NCBI GenBank assembly: GCA_030653175.1
Contig: JAURZV010000088.1
Span: 1 to 55,989, forward strand
Direction of reading: 5' to 3'
Length of the DNA: 55,989 nt
Source of the DNA: Methylobacter sp.
Lineage (GTDB): Bacteria; Pseudomonadota; Gammaproteobacteria; Methylococcales; Methylomonadaceae
Position 1 is the first letter of the stretch. Each line of letters opens with the position of its first letter. Under the pieces are notes generated by a model. That model searched no databases and was not told the DNA's origin. It worked only from the letters and a program-made list of their open reading frames with translations. This document shows positions 35,295-45,459 of the stretch, piece by piece. Position numbers and translations under genes: made by a program.

Positions 35295-36272
35295 TTAACT
35301 ACGCAATTGCGTCATCAGATCTTCAGCTAAGCTTTTTACCTCACCCTGGGTAATAATAACCAGTCGTCCAATGCCGTCATCAGAAGTTCTTACTGGCAGC
35401 CGCATTGCAGGATAAAGCCTTCCGGCTGATCCTTGCACCAGTAATGGTCGGTTTTGCTCAGGCGTGTAAACCATGCCTTTTAAGCGGACCAGCTGTTTGG
35501 GATAGTGAGCAATCAGGTATTCCAACACTTTTTGTAACCGTTCCCACGGTAGTGGATGCTCAAGTTGCAAGGTGATGCTGCTAAAGCCATGATCGGGTAA
35601 ATCGGGCAGTTCGGTATCACGCAGTCGCCTGAATTTTTTCGGAAAGTTGAGTAGTGCGTTGGGGTCAAGCGCACCTTGCACAGCGGTCAGTCGCGTTGCG
35701 GCGGGGGCGAGAGTCAGCAAACGTGCTTCCAGTTTTGCAATCGCTTGAGCTGTTGCCAAGTCGGTTTGCGTCATTACGACCGTGTCTGCCCAGGCGATTT
35801 GCGCCTGCGCTTCAGGAAAGTAGTCAAAATGATCTTCATCCATGATTGCGGAAACGGTAGTAATAACGCCTTGTAAGCTATAACGCGCAGCTAGCCAACG
35901 TTCCCTTAACAAAATATCCAGCACGGGTTCCGGATTGGCAACGCCGCTGGTTTCGATGATCACCCGCTCGAAAGATTTGTTCCCGGAATCCCAAGCCATG
36001 CGTAGGTTTTTAAGCAAGGGCGTTAACGAACCGCGTACCTGACAGCACAAACAACCACCGACTAAGGTTGATAAAGGTACTTTATGCTCGCGCAGTAATT
36101 GTTGGTCAATCGGGGTAGTGCCAAACTCGTTAATAATGACCGCCGATTTGGGCGCATGACTCAATAAACGATTCAGCAAAGTGGTTTTTCCGCTGCCCAA
36201 AAACCCGCTGATAATGAACACAGGTATGCGTTCAATGACTTTAGAGGATGGGGATAAGCTGTAATGGTTCAT
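35295..36272 (-). CDS. COG0523 (CobW/YeiR-type) metallochaperone GTPase, third copy
   Basis: A G3E-family GTPase expected to hand over zinc or a related metal. The 325-residue protein has Walker A GFLGSGKTT (about 21-29), the metal-binding CLCC (about 75-78) of the CxCC type, TQTD in place of the NKxD base-recognition motif, and a C-terminal CobW domain from about 220. It starts 17 bp after the FhcA-like gene and is the last intact gene of the Zur operon. Its probable client, by neighbourhood, is that enzyme; this is inference. Confidence 0.88.
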   Translation of the reverse strand: MNHYSLSPSSKVIERIPVFIISGFLGSGKTTLLNRLLSHAPKSAVIINEFGTTPIDQQLLREHKVPLSTLVGGCLCCQVRGSLTPLLKNLRMAWDSGNKSFERVIIETSGVANPEPVLDILLRERWLAARYSLQGVITTVSAIMDEDHFDYFPEAQAQIAWADTVVMTQTDLATAQAIAKLEARLLTLAPAATRLTAVQGALDPNALLNFPKKFRRLRDTELPDLPDHGFSSITLQLEHPLPWERLQKVLEYLIAHYPKQLVRLKGMVYTPEQNRPLLVQGSAGRLYPAMRLPVRTSDDGIGRLVIITQGEVKSLAEDLMTQLRS

Positions 36273-36288
36273 GGTTTATTTATAGGGG

Positions 36289-37968
36289 TTATTTTAAGCT
36301 CGCGCTTGGCGCAAGATAAGCTTGTCCGCAATCATGACTGACAAACCGTTCACTATCGGCCTGCCTGAAACTAACATCTTCCACCTTGAAATTATCCAGG
36401 CTCAGATTATAAAAGCGGTCGTAGTAGGCCTGTATATCGCGTTTGATTTGGGGGTCAAACTGCGCCTGTATCGTTTGTGTGCTGCCATTGCGGCGTTGCT
36501 GTACGACACCCTTCTTGACGACCAGTTCGCCGTTCTTGAACAGCAAATCAACATCAGTAAACATGGCTTCCTTGTCGGCTTGCTCGCTGTAGACGGCAAT
36601 ATCGGCAATGCCGCCGGGCATTAAATGCCCGCGATCATGCAGCCCCAATAGTCGCGCGGCGGCGGTGCGGGTCATGGTGGCGATTTCGTACAGGGTAAAT
36701 TGTTTTTTCAAGTCTTTTAGCAAGCTCATGGCAACGGCTTCCTGATTTAGCCTGGCCATGCACTCCAGACGAAAATCGGCATCCATCAGCAACCGGATCA
36801 AATACGGATAGCGCGTAAACGGCCCGCCATTGGGATGATCGGTGGTAAAAAACAAGCGCCACGGGTCTTCGGCCAATAAGAAAATTTCCAGGCCAATCAG
36901 CCATTGCAGGCTATTCACAAAACTTTTTTCCTGATAACGGTACGGCACCGCGCCGCCACTGCCTTCACATTCGGCATCCCAGACCACCCATTTGTTGGGT
37001 GAGGCATTGCTACGGCGACTGTACTGGGCAATCACGTCGCCGGAAATGGTCACGGTCTGGCCAAAAATCACCTGGCCGACATCCATGGTGATGTTGCGAT
37101 GTTTGTTAAAGCCATCAATCAATTTCGCCGCCGCCGATGAAAAGCCTCGGACGCCTTCCGCTCCATAACCATAAAACTGGATATGCGCCAGATGCATGGG
37201 CAAGCCTTGCGCGGCCTCCATGGTGGCGATGGCGGTATCGACATTGCCGGGAATACCTAAGTTATTGCAATGTACATGTACCGGATGCGGCAATTGAATT
37301 TCACAGGCGGCGCGTTGCAGGGTTTGCAAAATGTGCCGTGAACTCACCCCGTAATCCGGCACGACATCATCCAGATCGAAACTGCGCGCATTCGATTTGA
37401 AGGCATTGGCGCCGCCGGCATTAATCACCTTTAAACCGAGACAGCGGGTTGCATGTAAGGTCCAGGCGACATAATCGTTGATCTGGTTTTGGCTGGCCTT
37501 GGCGCGCATCAGGCGCAGTAAAAAATCATCGTTACCCAGTATGGCAAGACCAGCGGTGTCAATAATCGGAATATCAGCCATTTGTAAATGCGCATCCAGA
37601 GCGTTACAGGGTAATACCGCAGGTTCAACCACGGTCGTGTAACCCATCCTTGCATAGCGATAGCCGGTTTCTGTGGTTGACCAGTGCGCGGTACTGAAAG
37701 CGTGGCCCAACTTTCGGGCCATGCTGTTGCGGTGTTGTTCAGGTAACAACAAACGCGCGGTATTGACGTTGCCACCGGCAATGTGGCTATGAATATCAAT
37801 CGCTCCCGCCATAACGACTTTGCCGGAGACATCATAATCAGCCGTAATCGTTTCGCCTGAATCGGGCGTAGAGATAATCACACCATCACGGAACCACAGA
37901 TCTTGAACTGTGCCATTCAAACCTTGGGCGGGATCAAAAACCCGCCCGCCTGTTAAGCGCGTTAGCAT
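36289..37968 (-). CDS. fhcA: FhcA-like formylmethanofuran dehydrogenase/hydrolase subunit A (amidohydrolase)
   Basis: A 559-residue amidohydrolase closely like FwdA/FhcA, the subunit that hydrolyses formyl-methanofuran (or formyl-MYFR) to formate in H4MPT-linked C1 oxidation. Binuclear metal-site residues are all present: H60 and H62 (DIHSHIAGG), Lys180 (GLKVINAGG, probably carboxylated), H231/H233 (VHVHCN), H259/H262 and D377 (TTDHPNGGPF). The ATG at 37968 overlaps the upstream cobW gene by 7 bp. fhcB, fhcC and fhcD are not here, so this is a solitary copy in a zinc-starvation operon. Either it replaces the main FhcA under zinc limitation or it has taken a new substrate. Confidence 0.88.
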   Translation of the reverse strand: MLTRLTGGRVFDPAQGLNGTVQDLWFRDGVIISTPDSGETITADYDVSGKVVMAGAIDIHSHIAGGNVNTARLLLPEQHRNSMARKLGHAFSTAHWSTTETGYRYARMGYTTVVEPAVLPCNALDAHLQMADIPIIDTAGLAILGNDDFLLRLMRAKASQNQINDYVAWTLHATRCLGLKVINAGGANAFKSNARSFDLDDVVPDYGVSSRHILQTLQRAACEIQLPHPVHVHCNNLGIPGNVDTAIATMEAAQGLPMHLAHIQFYGYGAEGVRGFSSAAAKLIDGFNKHRNITMDVGQVIFGQTVTISGDVIAQYSRRSNASPNKWVVWDAECEGSGGAVPYRYQEKSFVNSLQWLIGLEIFLLAEDPWRLFFTTDHPNGGPFTRYPYLIRLLMDADFRLECMARLNQEAVAMSLLKDLKKQFTLYEIATMTRTAAARLLGLHDRGHLMPGGIADIAVYSEQADKEAMFTDVDLLFKNGELVVKKGVVQQRRNGSTQTIQAQFDPQIKRDIQAYYDRFYNLSLDNFKVEDVSFRQADSERFVSHDCGQAYLAPSASLK

Positions 37969-38957
37969 GTCAGTACCCTGCAACCGTCTAAAGCCTCATG
38001 GATGGCCTGCTTGGGCAGGTTGCGCCCGATAAAGACCAACACCGACAGTCGGATTTCATCGATTGCCCAAGGCACGCCAATACTGTCTGCCAGTAGCATG
38101 TGTACGCCCTGATAAATAATCTTGCGATCGCAGCCTGCGATATGGACAATGCCTTTATAGCGCAATAAATCGTTACCATAATCCCTGACCATCACGTCCA
38201 TAAAGGCGATAATTTTGGCGGCATCCATTGCCCTATCAGTACGATAAACAAAAGAAGTGATACCGGCGTCATGTTCATGACTGACGTCGTCCAGAAAATC
38301 GGGCTCAATGTCCAGAATGGCGTTGAGACTAAAACCGCGTATATCGAGAATTTCACTGATGTCGGTTTCACCAAAATGAACATGAGCGATAGGCGCACGG
38401 GCATTGATACCGCGTAAGCGTGCTTCCAGTTCCGTCGCTTCTGCGGATGTTATCAAATCCGTTTTGGATAATAACAAACGATCGGCAAAGCCAACCTGTT
38501 CTTCCGCCTCATGGTTATCATCAAGTTGTTTGAGGGCATGTTTGGCATCGACGACGGTAATAATCGCATCCAGCAAATAATACTCACCAATATCCCGTTC
38601 CACAAAAAACGTTTGCGCGACGGGAGCGGGGTCTGCAAGGCCGGTCGTTTCAATAATGACCCGTTCAAAATGCAGCGATCCGTTCTCGCGTTTTTCGGCC
38701 AAATCGCCCAAAATGCGCACCAGATCACCGCGCACGGTGCAACAAATGCAGCCATTGTTCATTTCAACGATTTGCTCTTCGCCCTGAATGAGCAGGTCAC
38801 TATCAATACCCTCTTCGCCGAATTCATTTTCAATGACGGCAATACGATGACCATGTTCTTCAGACAGGATACGGTTTAACAGCGTAGTTTTTCCTGCGCC
38901 TAAAAAACCGGTCAAAATGGTGACGGGGACGGGTGTGGAGCGGTTAGAATCAGGCAT
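37962..38957 (-). CDS. COG0523 (CobW/YjiA-type) metallochaperone GTPase, second copy
   Basis: A 331-residue G3E GTPase. Walker [10 protein letters not shown] (about 16-24), metal-binding CICC (about 71-74) after EMNNG, the SKTD base motif (about 160) and a C-terminal CobW domain with SFVYRTDRAMDA are seen. It is distinct in sequence from the first and third copies, so the three are not recent duplicates. It is translationally coupled to the FhcA-like gene, which suggests it loads or services that metalloenzyme. A duplicate of its first 100 bp lies 300 bp upstream. Confidence 0.9.
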   Translation of the reverse strand: MPDSNRSTPVPVTILTGFLGAGKTTLLNRILSEEHGHRIAVIENEFGEEGIDSDLLIQGEEQIVEMNNGCICCTVRGDLVRILGDLAEKRENGSLHFERVIIETTGLADPAPVAQTFFVERDIGEYYLLDAIITVVDAKHALKQLDDNHEAEEQVGFADRLLLSKTDLITSAEATELEARLRGINARAPIAHVHFGETDISEILDIRGFSLNAILDIEPDFLDDVSHEHDAGITSFVYRTDRAMDAAKIIAFMDVMVRDYGNDLLRYKGIVHIAGCDRKIIYQGVHMLLADSIGVPWAIDEIRLSVLVFIGRNLPKQAIHEALDGCRVLTC

Positions 38958-38990
38958 GGGATCTCCAGGGATATGAGTTATAAATAATTA

Positions 38991-39137
38991 TTATTTGGCA
39001 ATAAATCGTGTGTCGATTACCTCGACCCGGTTGCCGCGCACGGCGTTGTAAAAACAACTGCGTCGTCCGGTGTGGCACGCCGGGCCGAGCTGGTCGACCA
39101 GCAGCAACAGGGCGTCGCCGTCGCAATCGAGCCTCAT
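38991..39137 (-). pseudogene. hisI: C-terminal fragment of phosphoribosyl-AMP cyclohydrolase (HisI)
   Basis: The frame reads [19 protein letters not shown] then [13 protein letters not shown] to a stop at 38991. This is the zinc-binding C-terminal half of HisI with its three cysteines (DCDGD, ACHTG, SCFYN). The N-terminal half, which carries the rest of the active site, is replaced by a hairpin repeat and a copy of a cobW 5' end. HisI is a known Zur-controlled paralogue in other bacteria, so a zinc-sparing hisI probably stood here before the deletion. Confidence 0.75.
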
Positions 39138-39235
39138 GCCGGACGGGGTTTGCAACCCCGTTCGATACGTTTGACGGATGAAAAGATTGCAATAGTTATT
39201 TAAACGTTTGAGACGGGGTTGCAAACCCCGTCCCG
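39138..39235. repeat. GACGGGGTTTGCAACCCCGT hairpin repeat inside hisI
   Basis: Two palindromic arms, 39142-39161 and 39212-39231, face each other with an AT-rich spacer. Related CGGGGGTTGCAACCCCCG hairpins occur near 45835 and 45915. Insertion or recombination at this repeat likely removed the front of hisI. Confidence 0.7.
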
Positions 39236-39240
39236 CTTGG

Positions 39241-39346
39241 AATGTGCCTCAGACAAGATACGGTTTAACAGCGTGGTTTTTCCTGCGCCTAAAAAACCGG
39301 TCAAAATGGTCACGGGGACGGGTGTGGAGCGGTTAGAATCAGGCAT
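39241..39346 (-). pseudogene. duplicated 5' end of the second cobW gene
   Basis: These bases match 38851-38957 almost perfectly, covering the start codon and about 33 codons (to the Walker A and just past it), and then break off into the hairpin. It carries the same start context GGCATGG-complement but no following gene body. It marks a partial duplication in the operon. Confidence 0.85.
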
Positions 39347-39392
39347 GGATTTATCCTATCGGTTATAAAAAAATGAATACTGCGTAACAAAC

Positions 39393-40070
39393 TCAACCAA
39401 AATCCAGCGTCAACAACAAACGTTTGGGTGAGTTGTGCGTTAACTGCGGCGAGCGATGCACTGCGCCATGTTGCTCATTACCTTCCCAGCATGATCCTTT
39501 AAGTAGACCAATTGCATAAGCCGGTATGGTTTGGATGGCATCGGCATCCATAATCAAGCCTGAGAGTTCATCATTTGAGCCGCCAGAACCCGTACCCAGT
39601 TTACGTCGGTCGACATAAGCATCTTCCAGCCACTCGGTGCCAACATCTCCGTAGGTGCAAACCATGCGGCAGGTCACCGAGTCGACATGAAATTTTGGAC
39701 ACATGGCATGATCCAAAGTGCGCAACCGCAAACCGACACGCTTTAACTCGAATAAATCACAATAAAGCGCTGTTAAACCGGCTACATCTTTGCAAAATGC
39801 GCGATAACCCGGTAAATGCCCTGTTTGAGGTAACAAGCTAAAGAAATTGAACGATGCAAAATCAATGCTTTCAACAAAACTGATTTGATTTGGGAGTCTT
39901 AACAAATGCCCAACAAAGCGTTCCAGCTCGTTATCAACTTGACGCTCTACCACGCAAAGATTGATGACGGGTTGATAAATCTGGGCTAAATCGGCCAAGT
40001 TATTAGAATGATAAGCGCGGGAAACCGGCGTTATTAAATGTTGTGCGGTAGCAACCATGACGGCCCTCAT
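39393..40070 (-). CDS. DUF1826 domain protein
   Basis: A 225-residue cytoplasmic protein that I assign to DUF1826, whose genes are often found beside COG0523 zinc GTPases and ZIP/Zur genes. Seen features: a helical N-terminal half (ISFVESIDFASFNFFSL), then CPKFHVDSVTCRMVCTYGDVGTEWL (about 143-167, here with H, C, C) that looks like a metal-binding cupin-like core, and WEGNEQHGAVHRSP near the end. The HxD plus later H pattern hints at a 2-His-carboxylate site; function is unknown. Its start overlaps the ZIP stop by 4 bp. Confidence 0.82.
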   Translation of the reverse strand: MRAVMVATAQHLITPVSRAYHSNNLADLAQIYQPVINLCVVERQVDNELERFVGHLLRLPNQISFVESIDFASFNFFSLLPQTGHLPGYRAFCKDVAGLTALYCDLFELKRVGLRLRTLDHAMCPKFHVDSVTCRMVCTYGDVGTEWLEDAYVDRRKLGTGSGGSNDELSGLIMDADAIQTIPAYAIGLLKGSCWEGNEQHGAVHRSPQLTHNSPKRLLLTLDFG

Positions 40071-40852
40071 TGACTCAGTAAAGTGTGTTCCAGGATGATG
40101 ATTGATTGCATAAAGCCAATGCCTAAGCCAAAGATAATGGTTTGTCCCACCAAATTGGCTATCGTGGAATGTTCATGCAACGCCGGGATCATGTCGGTCG
40201 CGGCAATATAGATAAAGCCACCCGCAGCAATCGGCAATAAAAATACCAGCGAAGATTCCGCCACTTGACTGAAAAACAGGGCAAAGACTGCGCCGATGAC
40301 AACAGTCAGCGAACAGTAAAAGTTGTAGAGTACCGCTTTAGCGGGTGAGTATCCTCCATAAACCAGCGCGCCGACATCGCCGATTTCTTGCGGAATTTCG
40401 TGGGCAATAATCGCCAGTGTTGTGGTAAATCCCAGCACGGGATCCACCCAAAAACTGCCGCCTATCAAAATGCCATCGACAAAATTATGCACGGCATCAC
40501 CCATTAAATTCATCTTGGCAATCGGGCGAATATCATTTTGTTGGCTGGGCAGATTAATGTGATGGTCATGGCGCCAGCGCACCAGTTTTTCCAGCACGAA
40601 AAACAAAAACATCCCCAATAAAGCCATTAAACACACCATGGAAATTGACCCCTGACGCTGAACTGCATCAGGAATCAGGTGAATAAAAGCATCCCCCAAC
40701 AACACACCCACCGCCAAGGCAACCAGATAAGGAATGAGGCGCTTAAGACGTTCCGGCTCAATCCAGAGCGCAAACATGCCGCTCATTGAGGTAAGACTGA
40801 CTAAAAAGCTCGCGCCGATAGCACCTGCGTAAGTTTCAAAGGTTAGATTCAT
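40067..40852 (-). CDS. ZIP-family zinc/metal uptake transporter
   Basis: An inner-membrane metal importer of 261 residues with about eight helices. The transport site motifs of ZIP proteins are in helices 4 and 5: GDAVHNFVDG (about 124) and AHEIPQEIGD (about 155). A short His segment (RHDHH) precedes helix 4. It is coupled to DUF1826 (4-bp overlap) and follows a broken ZIP copy. In the Zur operon it would bring zinc across the inner membrane after ZnuD passes the outer one; no ZnuABC genes are in view. Confidence 0.9.
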   Translation of the reverse strand: MNLTFETYAGAIGASFLVSLTSMSGMFALWIEPERLKRLIPYLVALAVGVLLGDAFIHLIPDAVQRQGSISMVCLMALLGMFLFFVLEKLVRWRHDHHINLPSQQNDIRPIAKMNLMGDAVHNFVDGILIGGSFWVDPVLGFTTTLAIIAHEIPQEIGDVGALVYGGYSPAKAVLYNFYCSLTVVIGAVFALFFSQVAESSLVFLLPIAAGGFIYIAATDMIPALHEHSTIANLVGQTIIFGLGIGFMQSIIILEHTLLSQ

Positions 40853-41082: not shown

Positions 41083-42291
41083 TCAAGCGCGTTCATCATC
41101 AAGCCATGCAGGGAAGTTATCCCGGTAGGTTTTCCAACCTTCTTTACCGGCAGATAACTCAGCATCACTCAACAAACACTGGTCCAATTCCCGGCGCGCT
41201 TTATCAGCATTGATGTTTTGACCGATAAAGACCAGTTCTTGCCGACAGTCGCCAAAAGGTGCTTGCCAATTGGCGCGAATATCCGACACATGCTCTTCCG
41301 GCCATTCAGATTCAGGCACCGACGCCCACCAACGACCGGCACAGCCATGTTGCATGGTACCGCCTGCTTGCGACCAGTTGCCCACCCATTCAGGCCGGGA
41401 CGCCAGCCAGAAAAAGCCTTTGGAACGTAACAAGGTGCCGTTGTTCCAATCCTCACGATGCAAATAATCATAAAAACGCTCAGGATGAAACGGCTTGCGA
41501 GCTGCGTAAACAAAACTGGCGATGCCGTATTCTTCGGTTTCCGGGGTATGGCTGCCGCGCATTTCTTGTAACCAACCGGGCGCTTGTTCGGCTTGTTCAA
41601 AATTAAAGCGGCCGGTATTTAGGATTTTTTGGAGAGGCACCTGCCCCATCACCATCGGGATGATTTCGGCATCGCGATTTAGGGATTTAAGAATGGCGAC
41701 TAAATTGGCCAGCTCATCGACGCATATCAAATCGGCTTTTGAAACCAGAATAACGTTGCTGAACTCAATTTGTTCCACCAGCAAATCCGCGATGTTACGT
41801 TCATCATCTTCACCGAGCTCGGCATTAATATCTTTTAGCGATTGAGCTTCCAAATAATCAACCATGAAATTGACCGCATCGACCACTGTCACCATCGTGT
41901 CTAGTTTGGAAATATCCGACAAACTGACGCCGTCTTCATCCCTAAAGGTAAAGGTTTCGGCAATCGGCATGGGTTCTGCGATACCGGTGGATTCAATCAA
42001 CAGATAATCAAAACGACCTTCTTTGGCCAATTGCCCAACTTCCACCAATAAGTCTTCACGCAATGTGCAGCAAATACAGCCATTGCTCATTTCCACGAGT
42101 TTTTCTTCTGCGCGATTAAGGGTGACCTCGTTTTTAACGAGCGCTGCGTCAATGTTGATTTCACTCATGTCGTTGACGATCACGGCTATTTTTAAGCCCT
42201 CGCGGTTGGCGAGAATGTGATTGAGCAGCGTGGTTTTGCCTGCGCCTAAAAAACCCGACAGAACGGTGACTGGTAGTTGTTTGGTTTGCAT
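41083..42291 (-). CDS. zigA: ZigA-type COG0523 zinc metallochaperone GTPase, first copy
   Basis: A 402-residue G3E GTPase, the long form typical of Zur-controlled ZigA/YciC. Walker [10 protein letters not shown] (about 12-20), CICC (about 73-76), SKAD base motif (about 185), and a C-terminal CobW domain with [12 protein letters not shown] and [15 protein letters not shown] (about 285-327), which mark this subgroup. It is the first gene of the operon and a palindrome of Zur-box type lies 34 bp before its start. Known relatives deliver zinc to client enzymes when zinc is scarce. Confidence 0.93.
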
Positions 42292-42325: not shown

Positions 42326-42342
42326 ATGTTATAACATAACAT
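42326..42342. promoter_or_regulatory. Zur box ahead of the zigA operon
   Basis: ATGTTAT-AAC-ATAACAT is a perfect 7-bp inverted repeat with a 3-bp centre. It matches the gammaproteobacterial Zur consensus and the other two sites in this window, and would overlap the promoter of the eight-gene operon. Confidence 0.88.
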
Positions 42343-42399: not shown

Positions 42400-42510
42400 A
42401 TAGGGGCGGATTTATCCGCCCAGGGCGAATGACAAATCTGCCTGGAGCAGATTTGCATTTACCCGAAGGGTGCATGGCAGGGATAGCCATGCATGAATTC
42501 GCCCCTACAA
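42400..42510. repeat. TAGGGGCGGAT...ATTCGCCCCTA repeat
   Basis: Inverted outer arms TAGGGGCG and CGCCCCTA enclose smaller palindromes (TCTGCCTGGAGCAGA, GCATGGCAGGGATAGCCATGC). It belongs with the GTAGGGGCGACCGG palindrome family. It lies between the operon promoter and MITE copy 2. Confidence 0.6.
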
Positions 42511-42740: not shown

Positions 42741-44813
42741 TTAGTAACTAATCCGAATACCTATCTCCGCGCTACGCCCTGGTTCCGGGGCAAAATTACG
42801 CAGATAGGAAGTCGAGTTGCGGATATTTTCGTTGAGCATGTTCTTGCCTTTTGCAAACAGCAGCATTTCCGAATCGCCAAAGCTCGCCACGCGGTATTGC
42901 GCGCCCAGATTAAGCAGCAGATAAGACGGGGTGCTGGTCTCATTTTCGCCTGCATAATTCTGCGCTTCGCCACGGGTCAACCGCACATTGCCTGACCAGT
43001 CGTTTTTTTCGTAACTCAGTTGTGATCCATAGCGCAACGGAGGCATACGGGGGACGTTGCCGCCCTGCTCAAACCTGCCACGGGTGTAGTCGCCGAATAA
43101 GGTCAGATCGACCGCGCCGTAACGGTTTTGCATCAGCGGGAACACGGTTTGGGCTTCAAAGCCTTTGAAGGTAGCGGCGGTTTGTTGGGTGTTCAGCAAG
43201 GGAAAGCACTCATCGCAATCAATATCGGGGCTTTGAAAACTGCCATCTGCCGCATTAAATAATTCGCCGGAAGAACGCTGCTGGTAAATATAATCACTGA
43301 CCCAATTATGGAACAGGTTAATGTCCGCAGTCATCCAGGCTGCGTTAAAGCGATAACCCAGGTCGAGGTTATTGGAAAACTCTTTGCCTAAGTTCGCATC
43401 GCCTTTTTCATAACTGCGCGTCGCATGATGAAAACCATCGGTAAATAATTCCTGTATTTGCGGTGCACGTTGTGAATGGGTGTAACCCAAGCTCATCTGG
43501 TGCCGGTCGTTAATCGCCCATAATGCAGAAGCGGAGCCGCTCAGCGGTACATACGAAACGCTTGCCAAACCTTCTGGATCAATGCCATTCCACTCAGCGC
43601 GCGCCCCCAACTCATAAGTCATTGCGCCTTTTTCAAGCGACTCAACTGCAAAAAAACCATAAGAATTAATATCGGATTTAGGCACAATTTTGCCTTCTTC
43701 CCCTAAACCCACAAATTGGCTGTTGACGGATTGAAAACCAGTCACGCCTTTGAGGGCGCCGATGGGCTGATGCTCAAGTTCCAGTCGGCTTTCAAACGAT
43801 TCATTGAGGAACGTGGTACCTGCAACGCCGCCATTCATTTCAACATGTTTATAGTCGGTATAACCCAATTTCATGCGCACTTCTTCGGCAAAGGCAAACG
43901 GTTTGTTCAGTTGGCCTTTAAGGTCGTATTTGGTTTGTGTCAAATCAACGGATATTGGCGCTTCGCCATGACCGTCCGGCGGAATCCCGTAACTTTTTTC
44001 CAGGCTATTAATCGCCGCACCGACCAAACCGGCGTCGCCAATCATGGATAAACCGACTGAACCACCGCGCGAACGGGCCTGGGTATTGGCAATAAAATCT
44101 TGCGAGTTTTGCAACTCGCCAACTGGCAGGCTGTTAAAACTGGGGTCATGGCGTCGCACTGCGTCTTCATCTATCGCCGTACCGCCAATAGAAGTATTGC
44201 CTTGATCGCGATAAAAACCATCGACATGATAGGCAAAACCGTTTTTACCACCTTCCAGTTTAAGCGCGCTGGAGGTTTCATTGGTGGCTGAATCATAACG
44301 TTGCTCACCTGCGCCGCCGATGATTTTGTCCGGAACCTGTTCTGGAATGCGGTTATCGATGACATTGACAATACCGCCGATCGCGCCGTTGCCGTAAAGC
44401 AGCGTCGATGGCCCGCGCAACACCTCTACCCGTTCGGCGATAATCGGGTCAACACCGGTCGCGTGATCCGGGCTTAAAGAAGAAGCATCATTATTGCCCA
44501 AACTGTTCTGCATGACCCGCACCCTGGGCCCCGACTGCCCGCGAATCACGGGCGTCCCTACGCCGGCGCCAAACGATTGATTGGTTATGCCAAGCTCGTT
44601 TTGCAGGGTATCGCCTATGGTCTGACCCACGTTAGTACGGAGCTTATCGCCTGACAATACCGTTACCGGCTTGGCCGATTTTGCAGTGGCGTGCTTGATG
44701 CCCGTGCTAATGACGACTATATCTTCCAGTTTTTGGATTTTATTGTCAGCAGCATGGGCATTGGTTCCTATTGCACCTGTTGATAAGAAAATAATGGCGA
44801 GTTTTTTATTCAT
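42741..44813 (-). CDS. znuD: ZnuD-like TonB-dependent outer-membrane zinc receptor
   Basis: A 690-residue outer-membrane barrel that would import zinc or a zinc complex with TonB energy. The ATG at 44813 is chosen: the in-frame start at 44861 lies inside the Zur box. Signal peptide residues 1-22 (AHA), a TonB box near IVVISTG, the plug (VIRGQSGPRVRVM, VEVLRGPSTLLYGNGAIGGIVNV, about 60-150) and a barrel ending GIRISY. A DCDECF cluster lies in an outer loop. It sits between zur and the zigA operon with its own Zur box. Confidence 0.9.
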   Translation of the reverse strand: MNKKLAIIFLSTGAIGTNAHAADNKIQKLEDIVVISTGIKHATAKSAKPVTVLSGDKLRTNVGQTIGDTLQNELGITNQSFGAGVGTPVIRGQSGPRVRVMQNSLGNNDASSLSPDHATGVDPIIAERVEVLRGPSTLLYGNGAIGGIVNVIDNRIPEQVPDKIIGGAGEQRYDSATNETSSALKLEGGKNGFAYHVDGFYRDQGNTSIGGTAIDEDAVRRHDPSFNSLPVGELQNSQDFIANTQARSRGGSVGLSMIGDAGLVGAAINSLEKSYGIPPDGHGEAPISVDLTQTKYDLKGQLNKPFAFAEEVRMKLGYTDYKHVEMNGGVAGTTFLNESFESRLELEHQPIGALKGVTGFQSVNSQFVGLGEEGKIVPKSDINSYGFFAVESLEKGAMTYELGARAEWNGIDPEGLASVSYVPLSGSASALWAINDRHQMSLGYTHSQRAPQIQELFTDGFHHATRSYEKGDANLGKEFSNNLDLGYRFNAAWMTADINLFHNWVSDYIYQQRSSGELFNAADGSFQSPDIDCDECFPLLNTQQTAATFKGFEAQTVFPLMQNRYGAVDLTLFGDYTRGRFEQGGNVPRMPPLRYGSQLSYEKNDWSGNVRLTRGEAQNYAGENETSTPSYLLLNLGAQYRVASFGDSEMLLFAKGKNMLNENIRNSTSYLRNFAPEPGRSAEIGIRISY

Positions 44814-44844
44814 CGTTTTAACCGTATTGTTTGAATAATAAGAA

Positions 44845-44861
44845 ATGTTATAACGTAACAT
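44845..44861. promoter_or_regulatory. Zur box ahead of znuD
   Basis: ATGTTAT-AAC-GTAACAT, one mismatch from a perfect inverted repeat, 31 bp before the znuD start. Its position agrees with repression by zinc-loaded Zur. Confidence 0.85.
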
Positions 44862-44895: not shown

Positions 44896-45411
44896 TCAGC
44901 TTTGCTCGCTGCTCATGGTCTGCGCGCATTTTGCACATATGCCATGAATCTCGATGGCTTTGCTGTGCACAATGAAATCCGCCTGCCTGATTTCCCGCGA
45001 CAGCGCCCGCATGACTTCCGGGGCTGATCGTTCTTCCACTTCCTGACAGTTATTGCAGATCAGCAATAACTGTTCATGCTGATGCCCCGAGCAATTGCAA
45101 CCGACAAATGCATTGAGGCTTTCCACCCGATGGATCAGGCCCTGTTCGATCAAAAAATCCAGTGCGCGGTAAATCGTCGCGGGTTTTGCGGCATTTTGCA
45201 GGGGCTTGATGCGATCCAGCAGATCATAAGCTTTGACGGCCTTGTGGCTGTCCCAGATCAGTTCCAGCACTTGATGGCGTATCGGCGTTAATTGCACGCC
45301 GCGCACCACGCACAATTGCGCGGCGGTGTCTAAGGCCTCGCTGACGCATTTTTTATGATCGTGTCCTGAAGGATGAGGATGGTTGTGGCTTGCTTCGGCA
45401 GGTGTGTTCAT
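44896..45411 (-). CDS. zur: zinc uptake regulator Zur (Fur family)
   Basis: Zinc-sensing repressor of 171 residues. A His-rich N-terminal tail (NHPHPSGHDHKKC) precedes the winged-helix DNA-binding domain (about 35-95, TPIRHQVLELIW and PATIYRALDFLIEQGLIHRVES split). Structural-zinc cysteines are CNNC (about 118) and CAKC (about 161). ORF order zur then znuD, with a palindromic site ahead of zur, supports autoregulation. Being Fur-family, it could bind another metal, but the surrounding genes identify zinc. Confidence 0.94.
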   Translation of the reverse strand: MNTPAEASHNHPHPSGHDHKKCVSEALDTAAQLCVVRGVQLTPIRHQVLELIWDSHKAVKAYDLLDRIKPLQNAAKPATIYRALDFLIEQGLIHRVESLNAFVGCNCSGHQHEQLLLICNNCQEVEERSAPEVMRALSREIRQADFIVHSKAIEIHGICAKCAQTMSSEQS

Positions 45412-45432: not shown

Positions 45433-45459
45433 ATCGAATGTTATATTATAACATTCGAT
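45433..45459. promoter_or_regulatory. Zur box ahead of zur (perfect 27-bp palindrome)
   Basis: ATCGAATGTTATA, one central T, then the exact complement. The inner ATGTTAT-ATT-ATAACAT equals the site type at 42326 and 44845. It lies 22 bp upstream of the zur start codon and suggests autorepression. Confidence 0.9.

Follow-up and report, generated by a model that had tools for sequence, protein, structure and literature searches.

Gene cluster in the window

In methanotrophs and other methylotrophs, formate is made by the formyltransferase/hydrolase complex, whose metal-dependent hydrolase subunit is FhcA. The window analysed here, a stretch of 55,989 nt from a Methylobacter sp. contig (the genome comprises 4,003,426 bases in 109 contigs), contains a gene for a paralogue of this subunit, termed fhcA2, which clusters with zinc uptake genes, a zur-like gene and COG0523 genes (Table 1). 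From position 45411 downwards, the minus strand encodes a Fur-family regulator, a ZnuD-like receptor, ZigA, a ZIP transporter, a DUF1826 protein, the COG0523 GTPase COGb, FhcA2 and a further COG0523 GTPase, COGc. The presence of a second FhcA in a zinc cluster suggests a spare part for one-carbon metabolism in zinc scarcity. COGb and fhcA2 overlap by 7 nt and COGc lies 16 nt downstream of fhcA2; an earlier note on this DNA had described both neighbours, correctly as regards the overlap, and had put the second spacing at 17 nt.

No gene for FhcB, FhcC or FhcD was found in the zinc cluster of the window. The canonical set is located on another contig (G000:C64) as an fhcB-fhcA-fhcD-fhcC run, the FhcA of which is 52% identical to FhcA2. 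The second, fhc-clustered fhcA that the earlier note had envisaged elsewhere in the genome is therefore present, and the possibility that fhcA2 is the sole fhcA of this organism was rejected.

The Fur-family regulator scored 132.5 bits against the Zur model PRK11639, its best match, where the curated cutoff is 167; because the score falls below this cutoff, the protein is called Zur by context. The only other zinc-enzyme paralogue in the window is a remnant of hisI2. It is found, together with a duplicated 5′ piece of COGb, in the 435-bp gap between the DUF1826 gene and COGb (38958-39392, minus strand), indicating that the cluster probably once carried hisI2 too.

Table 1. Features of the fhcA2 zinc cluster, with positions in the window
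Feature	Position	Strand	Evidence
COG0523/G3E GTPase COGc	35295..36272	-	CobW domains; distribution
fhcA2, zinc-cluster paralogue of FhcA (formyltransferase/hydrolase complex subunit A)	36289..37968	-	TIGR03121, 6s6y match, invariant metal residues, omega
COG0523/G3E GTPase COGb, candidate metallochaperone for FhcA2	37962..38957	-	CobW domains; co-occurrence with fhcA2 in 121 family genomes
hisI2 (phosphoribosyl-AMP cyclohydrolase paralogue) remnant	39024..39152	-	tblastn 74% over HisI2 residues 86-128
Duplicated 5′ fragment of COGb	39224..39346	-	tblastn 88% over residues 1-41
DUF1826 protein	39393..40070	-	PF08856; near 48/54 Methylococcales fhcA2 copies
ZIP-family metal transporter	40067..40852	-	PF02535
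ZigA-type zinc metallochaperone GTPase	41083..42291	-	NF038288 664.6 bits, cutoff 600
Zur-type palindrome before zigA	42326..42342	.	Perfect match; conserved before zigA in relatives
ZnuD-like TonB-dependent receptor	42741..44861	-	PF00593/PF07715; NF038289 411.6 bits, below cutoff 950
Zur-type site, one mismatch, at annotated start of ZnuD-like gene	44846..44860	.	
Fur-family regulator, probably Zur	44896..45411	-	PF01475; best NCBIfam model is Zur PRK11639
Zur-type palindrome before zur-like gene	45439..45453	.	Perfect match

FhcA2 retains the metal site of FhcA

The open reading frame of fhcA2 spans 36289-37983 on the minus strand, and the likely start, an ATG at 37968, yields a protein of 559 amino acids beginning MLTRL. 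FhcA2 passes the curated cutoff of TIGR03121 (664.9 bits against 392.75), and among solved structures it is closest to the FhcA in the FhcABCD complex of Methylorubrum (6s6y, E 3.6e-152). A fold search with a predicted model of moderate confidence (mean pLDDT 69) agrees, returning the expected FhcA fold only. With the binuclear metal site assigned as in FwdA/FhcA structures, His60, His62, Lys180, His231, His233, His262 and Asp377 are all present in FhcA2 and are invariant across 117 aligned FhcA sequences (two extended open reading frames, L127_8023 and L098_4254, are left out of the conservation counts). The family model, the 6s6y match and the residue alignment thus bear out the view that this is an FhcA-type gene with complete metal residues, and the sequence comparisons give good support to both the identity of FhcA2 and its membership of the zinc cluster. 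Zinc independence through loss of ligands, as in PyrC2, HemB2 and DksA2, was considered and rejected because all ligands are kept; with its metal ligands unchanged, FhcA2 is not a replacement that lacks the zinc site.

Conservation extends beyond the metal site. Of the 90 columns conserved across the canonical groups, FhcA2 retains 83 and the corresponding Methylophaga set 81. When canonical clades were left out one at a time, gammaproteobacterial FhcA1 kept 80/87 columns and alphaproteobacterial FhcA 90/105. Omega ranged from 0.04 to 0.16 for FhcA2 and from 0.03 to 0.07 for FhcA1 among the pairs for which it was computable, values that indicate that FhcA2 is under purifying selection.

Distribution and zinc context in Methylococcales

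Of 121 genomes of the family, 28 gave FhcA2-type matches; that of G013 has an internal stop, and fragments also occur in G109. Within the order, 36/151 sampled genomes match the FhcA2 model at ≥985 bits, the next match scoring 766. A contig scan for named carriers, in which 80 loci were kept of 518 candidates, has among the matches listed Methylobacter tundripaludum, Methylotuvimicrobium buryatense 5G, Methylomonas sp. LW13, Methylococcus capsulatus Texas, Crenothrix D3, Methylocaldum and Methylophaga species. This spread across family and order rejects the notion that fhcA2 is limited to the strain of the window, and the linkage of fhcA to COG0523 genes, which the earlier note had suggested looking for across Methylococcales, proved widespread.

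Genomic context was counted within 7 kb of each of the 54 distinct FhcA2 proteins from Methylococcales that reach 480 amino acids (dropping shorter reading frames removes broken copies); neighbours were named by BLAST against the window genes and against the relatives' FolE2, HisI2, ThrS2 and QueD2. In that range 51 of the 54 FhcA2 copies have a minimum of two zinc-cluster genes, compared with 0/40 copies beside FhcD that have any. The most frequent neighbours are the DUF1826 protein (48), ZIP (40), COGb (39), ZigA (38) and COGc (34). FolE2, HisI2, ThrS2 or QueD2, which are a hallmark of Zur-controlled zinc-enzyme paralogues, lie near 31/54 copies (family membership was checked on one example of each).

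The three exceptions differ from one another. At L103 a ZIP gene is located nearby and is preceded by a Zur-type site with one mismatch. The FhcA2-type gene of Ca. Methylobacter titanis (L092, equivalent to L171:8717-10375) is without zinc genes around it, and is flanked by a class-III aminotransferase and by BioD-like, Mur-ligase and ABC/HlyD/OEP export genes. The gene at L096 (L172:1034-2695) lies near a PAPS-reductase-domain gene, DUF6671 and a sulfate permease.

Zur-type sites

The palindrome ATGTTAT-AAC-ATAACAT occurs exactly at 42326-42342, and its 15-nt core, TGTTATNNNATAACA, has two perfect matches in the genome, at 42327 before zigA and at 45439-45453 before the zur-like gene. Both perfect Zur-type palindromes of the 4.0-Mb genome therefore fall in the fhcA2 zinc cluster. 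Sites with up to one mismatch are not enriched genome-wide (11 compared with 14 for a reversed control), so the argument from Zur sites rests on the perfect sites and on their conservation. Among 53 stretches of relatives carrying zigA, some genomes being included twice, 34 have a Zur-type site (at most one mismatch) before this gene, whereas 50 shuffling rounds gave 0.1 on average; in several relatives without it, a Zur-type site precedes znuD or zur instead. This conservation, in concert with the classic Zur-regulated paralogues in many clusters, sustains the proposed link of the cluster to Zur. The earlier note had the operon of fhcA2 start at a perfect Zur palindrome. The palindrome is indeed exact, but it heads the zigA run and lies some 3.4 kb and three genes (zigA, ZIP and DUF1826) upstream of COGb-fhcA2, an interval broken by gaps of 230 and 435 bp, the latter directly preceding COGb. 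Just upstream of the zigA-side site, at 42400-42505, there is a further palindromic sequence, a 21-base piece of which occurs once in the window.

Phylogeny of FhcA

A tree of 119 FhcA proteins was built by a quick search, with support from the SH-like approximate likelihood ratio test (SH-aLRT) only, no bootstrap and a midpoint root; proteins were merged only if identical, and some genomes are represented by an entry from each of the two collections. The Methylococcales zinc copies, together with the three exceptions described above, form a supported set (54 rows, SH-aLRT 97), a clade of zinc-linked fhcA copies of the kind that the earlier note had suggested looking for. This set is nested in a group of 92 rows (support 99) that also holds alphaproteobacterial fhc copies, the Methylophaga zinc copies and others, while 23 mostly gammaproteobacterial canonical FhcA proteins stand apart from it (support 94). 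The active-site motifs of FhcA2 are those typical of alphaproteobacterial FhcA. Tree and motifs lead us to reject FhcA2 as a recent duplicate of the methanotroph's own FhcA, which, as the canonical copies fall in a separate part of the tree, is not a near parent of FhcA2. The description of fhcA2 as a copy of a central C1 subunit hence holds in the sense that it is an FhcA paralogue alongside a housekeeping copy, but not in that of a recent duplication. As to a single origin of all zinc-linked copies, the Methylococcales and Methylophaga zinc sets group with a support of only 58, and fixed residues are shared by both; the Methylophilaceae copy and the FhcA of gammaproteobacterium L131, both described below, stand apart on long branches.

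In a simpler account FhcA2 would be an ordinary zinc FhcA, with the same metal and the same partner, which Zur control provides in greater dose and with first call on scarce zinc. The invariance of all metal ligands is in keeping with this. The long-diverged sequence, the fixed group-specific substitutions (see below) and the separate place in the tree exceed what a second gene dose would entail, which makes this account rather unlikely.

Two further observations concern the family at large. FhcA2 of L180 (G139, from another family of the order) is nearly identical to that of L051 (G043, from the family of the window), with branch lengths of about 0.002; the L180 stretch also shows repeated reading frames, and recent transfer, contamination or misassembly may be at work. 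A third type of FhcA, about 40% identical, is located beside FhcB, FhcC and FhcD genes in L066, L067, L068 and L169, and in L066 and L169 it lies near a copy of the usual type.

Copy number of the Fhc partners

Fhc partners were counted in 31 genomes with FhcA2, 25 from the family of the window and six others. FhcB and FhcD are present in all 31. FhcD is single in 30 of these, the same 30 have one full-length FhcB locus, and G048 has two of both; most FhcB matches are split into two pieces per locus, as the query carries an insertion. Because FhcB and FhcD are single in those 30 genomes, neither has a separate copy there for FhcA2 (the copy number of FhcC was not searched). The insertion in the sole full-length FhcB of the Methylobacter genome (L003:4622-5983) comprises 34 amino acids in frame, at about residues 227-262. 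Stretches resembling it occur at seven other places in the genome, and at the same position the insertion is shorter in the same-genus relative L061 and absent in three others.

Candidate COG0523 partners

COGb and COGc both carry the N- and C-terminal CobW domains (PF02492 and PF07683), and their translations contain a CxCC motif (GCICC in COGb and GCLCC in COGc), which we take to be that of COG0523 G3E GTPases. Across the 121 family genomes COGb occurs in 27/29 with fhcA2 and in 7/92 without it (p 3e-18, kinship ignored). Of the seven genomes with COGb and no fhcA2, L185 and L188 keep fhcA2 remnants, the COGb stretch of L189 ends at a contig edge, and L190 has COGb without a neighbouring fhcA2; the other three are considered below. 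COGc is common in genomes without fhcA2, and its candidacy as a dedicated FhcA2 partner was rejected. COGb is the tighter partner of the two, yet not an exclusive one. A strict dedication of the COG0523 genes to the FhcA copy accordingly does not hold, since COGb persists without fhcA2 in three genomes and COGc is common where fhcA2 is missing. That COGb may be the chaperone and FhcA2 its client is nonetheless the natural guess.

Zinc-linked FhcA copies in other lineages

Methylophaga-type genomes have two FhcA copies in 6/6 cases, the canonical one residing in an fhc cluster in the four that were fetched. The non-canonical copy follows a COG0523 gene in a cluster with a DUF1826 gene and a Fur-family gene. 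Close inspection of one Methylophaga locus, L117, showed that it also holds a ZrgA zinc-uptake protein, a TonB receptor and ABC genes. The COG0523 gene directly precedes fhcA2 in eight Methylophaga-type loci and in one Methylophilaceae metagenome-assembled genome, in which the cluster comprises hisI2, a weak queD2 match, a COGb homologue (67%), fhcA2, a dksA-like gene, zigA and a DUF1826 gene. In the Methylophaga stretches L114-L118 a Zur-type site separates fhcA2 from the genes that follow it. Gammaproteobacterium L131 (8312-10668) displays the arrangement in minimal form, with perfect Zur-type sites followed by hisI2 and then fhcA2; its genome has two full fhc clusters elsewhere.

Sedimenticola, Thiohalocapsa and others (L125-L130) contain FhcB-FhcA pairs with no FhcD or FhcC recognised adjacent. 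FhcD is encoded elsewhere in all five genomes tested from this set (L128 was not among them), and in L129 a furan-phosphate-synthase-like gene lies close to the pair. Separately, HIMB59-like genomes were considered as a case of FhcA acting without FhcD; FhcD is found in 3/5 of them, which gives no clear support for a stand-alone role.

Proposed role of FhcA2

From what is read in the sequence, that is the identity of FhcA2 as a second copy, its Zur-type sites and cluster membership, its purifying selection and the lack of a second FhcB or FhcD, we infer derepression of fhcA2, subunit exchange, choice of metal and chaperoning. Our preferred reading, to which we give a probability of roughly 0.57, is that FhcA2 is a zinc-starvation isoform of FhcA, derepressed through Zur and supplied with metal by COG0523, which replaces FhcA in FhcBCD so that formaldehyde oxidation continues. 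As zinc falls, Zur would leave its palindromes and the zinc cluster (zigA, ZIP, DUF1826, COGb, fhcA2 and COGc) would be made. The COG0523 GTPase translated just before FhcA2 would help to load the binuclear site, either with the little zinc available or with another metal in its stead, and FhcA2 would then substitute for FhcA in complexes with FhcC and with FhcB and FhcD, the last two being single-copy. Formaldehyde oxidation could thereby be maintained during zinc shortage.

The nature of the metal is a separate matter. In Cupriavidus metallidurans, CobW2 and CobW3 are COG0523 GTPases active in zinc starvation, and the bacterium can replace some of its zinc with cobalt, according to the parts of PMC11340326 consulted; this work makes a non-zinc metal thinkable for FhcA2. 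A stronger version of the proposal, in which FhcA2 is rebuilt into the Fhc complex during zinc starvation and COG0523 fills it with a non-zinc metal such as cobalt, iron or manganese, uncoupling methane and methanol oxidation from zinc supply, is possible but doubtful.

A number of observations weigh against the zinc-starvation reading. The metal ligands of FhcA2 are all as in canonical FhcA, with no sign of zinc independence in the sequence. L184, L186 and L187 hold COGb and COGc without fhcA2 between them. Neither in the Methylophaga stretches fetched nor in that of the Methylophilaceae genome is the cluster headed by a Zur-type site when one mismatch is tolerated, so Zur control in these lineages is argued from gene content only. 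In the window itself, a promoter-like match precedes COGb at 38987-39016 (such matches are no commoner there than in shuffled sequence); given this match and the 435-bp gap, Zur control of fhcA2 may be partial, with some transcript perhaps arising otherwise than by read-through from the Zur site. The copies L092 and L096 lie outside zinc clusters and, again allowing one mismatch, lack a Zur-type site. Finally, disrupted or truncated fhcA2 genes occur in G013, G109, G041 and G052, where assembly error is possible. Such decay fits a conditional gene, as expected under the preferred reading, but also a gene of little weight.

The repeated loss and decay would equally suit a passenger, carried along in the zinc cluster without a zinc-related role. 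Against this, zinc linkage is kept in nearly all distinct Methylococcales copies (51/54), it recurs in Methylophaga with a different gene set, in the Methylophilaceae genome and in a hisI2-fhcA2 pair headed by Zur-type sites, and omega is low, and we regard a passenger role as very improbable.

Substitutions fixed in FhcA2 relative to canonical FhcA (K138T, R314A, a new Arg318 and several within 314-337) also count against the preferred reading, as they could mean an altered partner or substrate. Lys138 and Arg314 are near-fixed in both the gammaproteobacterial and the alphaproteobacterial canonical groups, and the loss of these basic residues, the two copies in unrelated neighbourhoods and the separation of fhcA2 from FhcBCD genes would be explained if FhcA2 were a hydrolase, stand-alone or differently partnered and itself no more a part of the Fhc complex, that acts on another formyl compound or an amide. 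Set against such a function are the retention of canonical columns at the share typical of a canonical clade and the occurrence of FhcB and FhcD in every genome of the partner census. Moreover, Thr138 is also found in Sedimenticola-type FhcA copies, the sole FhcA matched in their genomes, and the new basic residue at 318 may stand in for Arg314. We thus consider a different substrate unlikely, and the sequence is more readily reconciled with the same chemistry and some shift in partner, coenzyme contact or metal.

In methanotrophs, the methane and methanol steps respond to the supply of copper and lanthanides. If the zinc-starvation reading of FhcA2 is correct, one-carbon oxidation would become a named target of the zinc-starvation response as well, at the steps from formaldehyde to formate. 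A COG0523 chaperone would also gain a concrete candidate client, and this in strains that have names, among them M. buryatense 5G, Methylomonas sp. LW13, M. tundripaludum and Methylophaga species.

Comparison with known systems

A Zur-linked FhcA is not described in the titles and abstract openings of the literature among the matches listed (complete for formylmethanofuran with Zur). FhcA2 resembles FhcA of the Methylorubrum extorquens FhcABCD complex in fold, length, metal site and most conserved columns, and differs from it in being encoded alone, in a zinc cluster, and in its group-specific substitutions. The COG0523 partners resemble CobW2 and CobW3 of C. metallidurans in that they are COG0523 GTPases with a putative part in zinc starvation; unlike the arrangement proposed for FhcA2, no FhcA client is mentioned for the C. 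metallidurans proteins in the sections of PMC11340326 seen. PyrC2, a Zur-regulated dihydroorotase, shares with FhcA2 the amidohydrolase fold and the setting in a (predicted) Zur regulon, but its zinc residues are not conserved according to the portions of Haas et al. (2009, PMC2770081) consulted, whereas FhcA2 keeps all of its own.

The same portions name HisI, PyrC, Cam, HemB, CysRS, ThrRS, an amidase, QueD and DksA, in addition to FolE2, as Zur-regulated paralogues of zinc enzymes associated with COG0523, and FhcA is not among the families named there. FhcA2 is like these systems in being a second metal-site enzyme clustered with Zur-type sites, COG0523 genes, DUF1826 and an outer membrane receptor, and in many relatives fhcA2 shares its cluster with FolE2, HisI2, ThrS2 or QueD2. 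Unlike those families, which are enzymes of biosynthesis or translation, FhcA is a subunit of a multi-protein complex of energy metabolism; FhcA2 would thus extend an established type of zinc-starvation response to a central enzyme of one-carbon metabolism.

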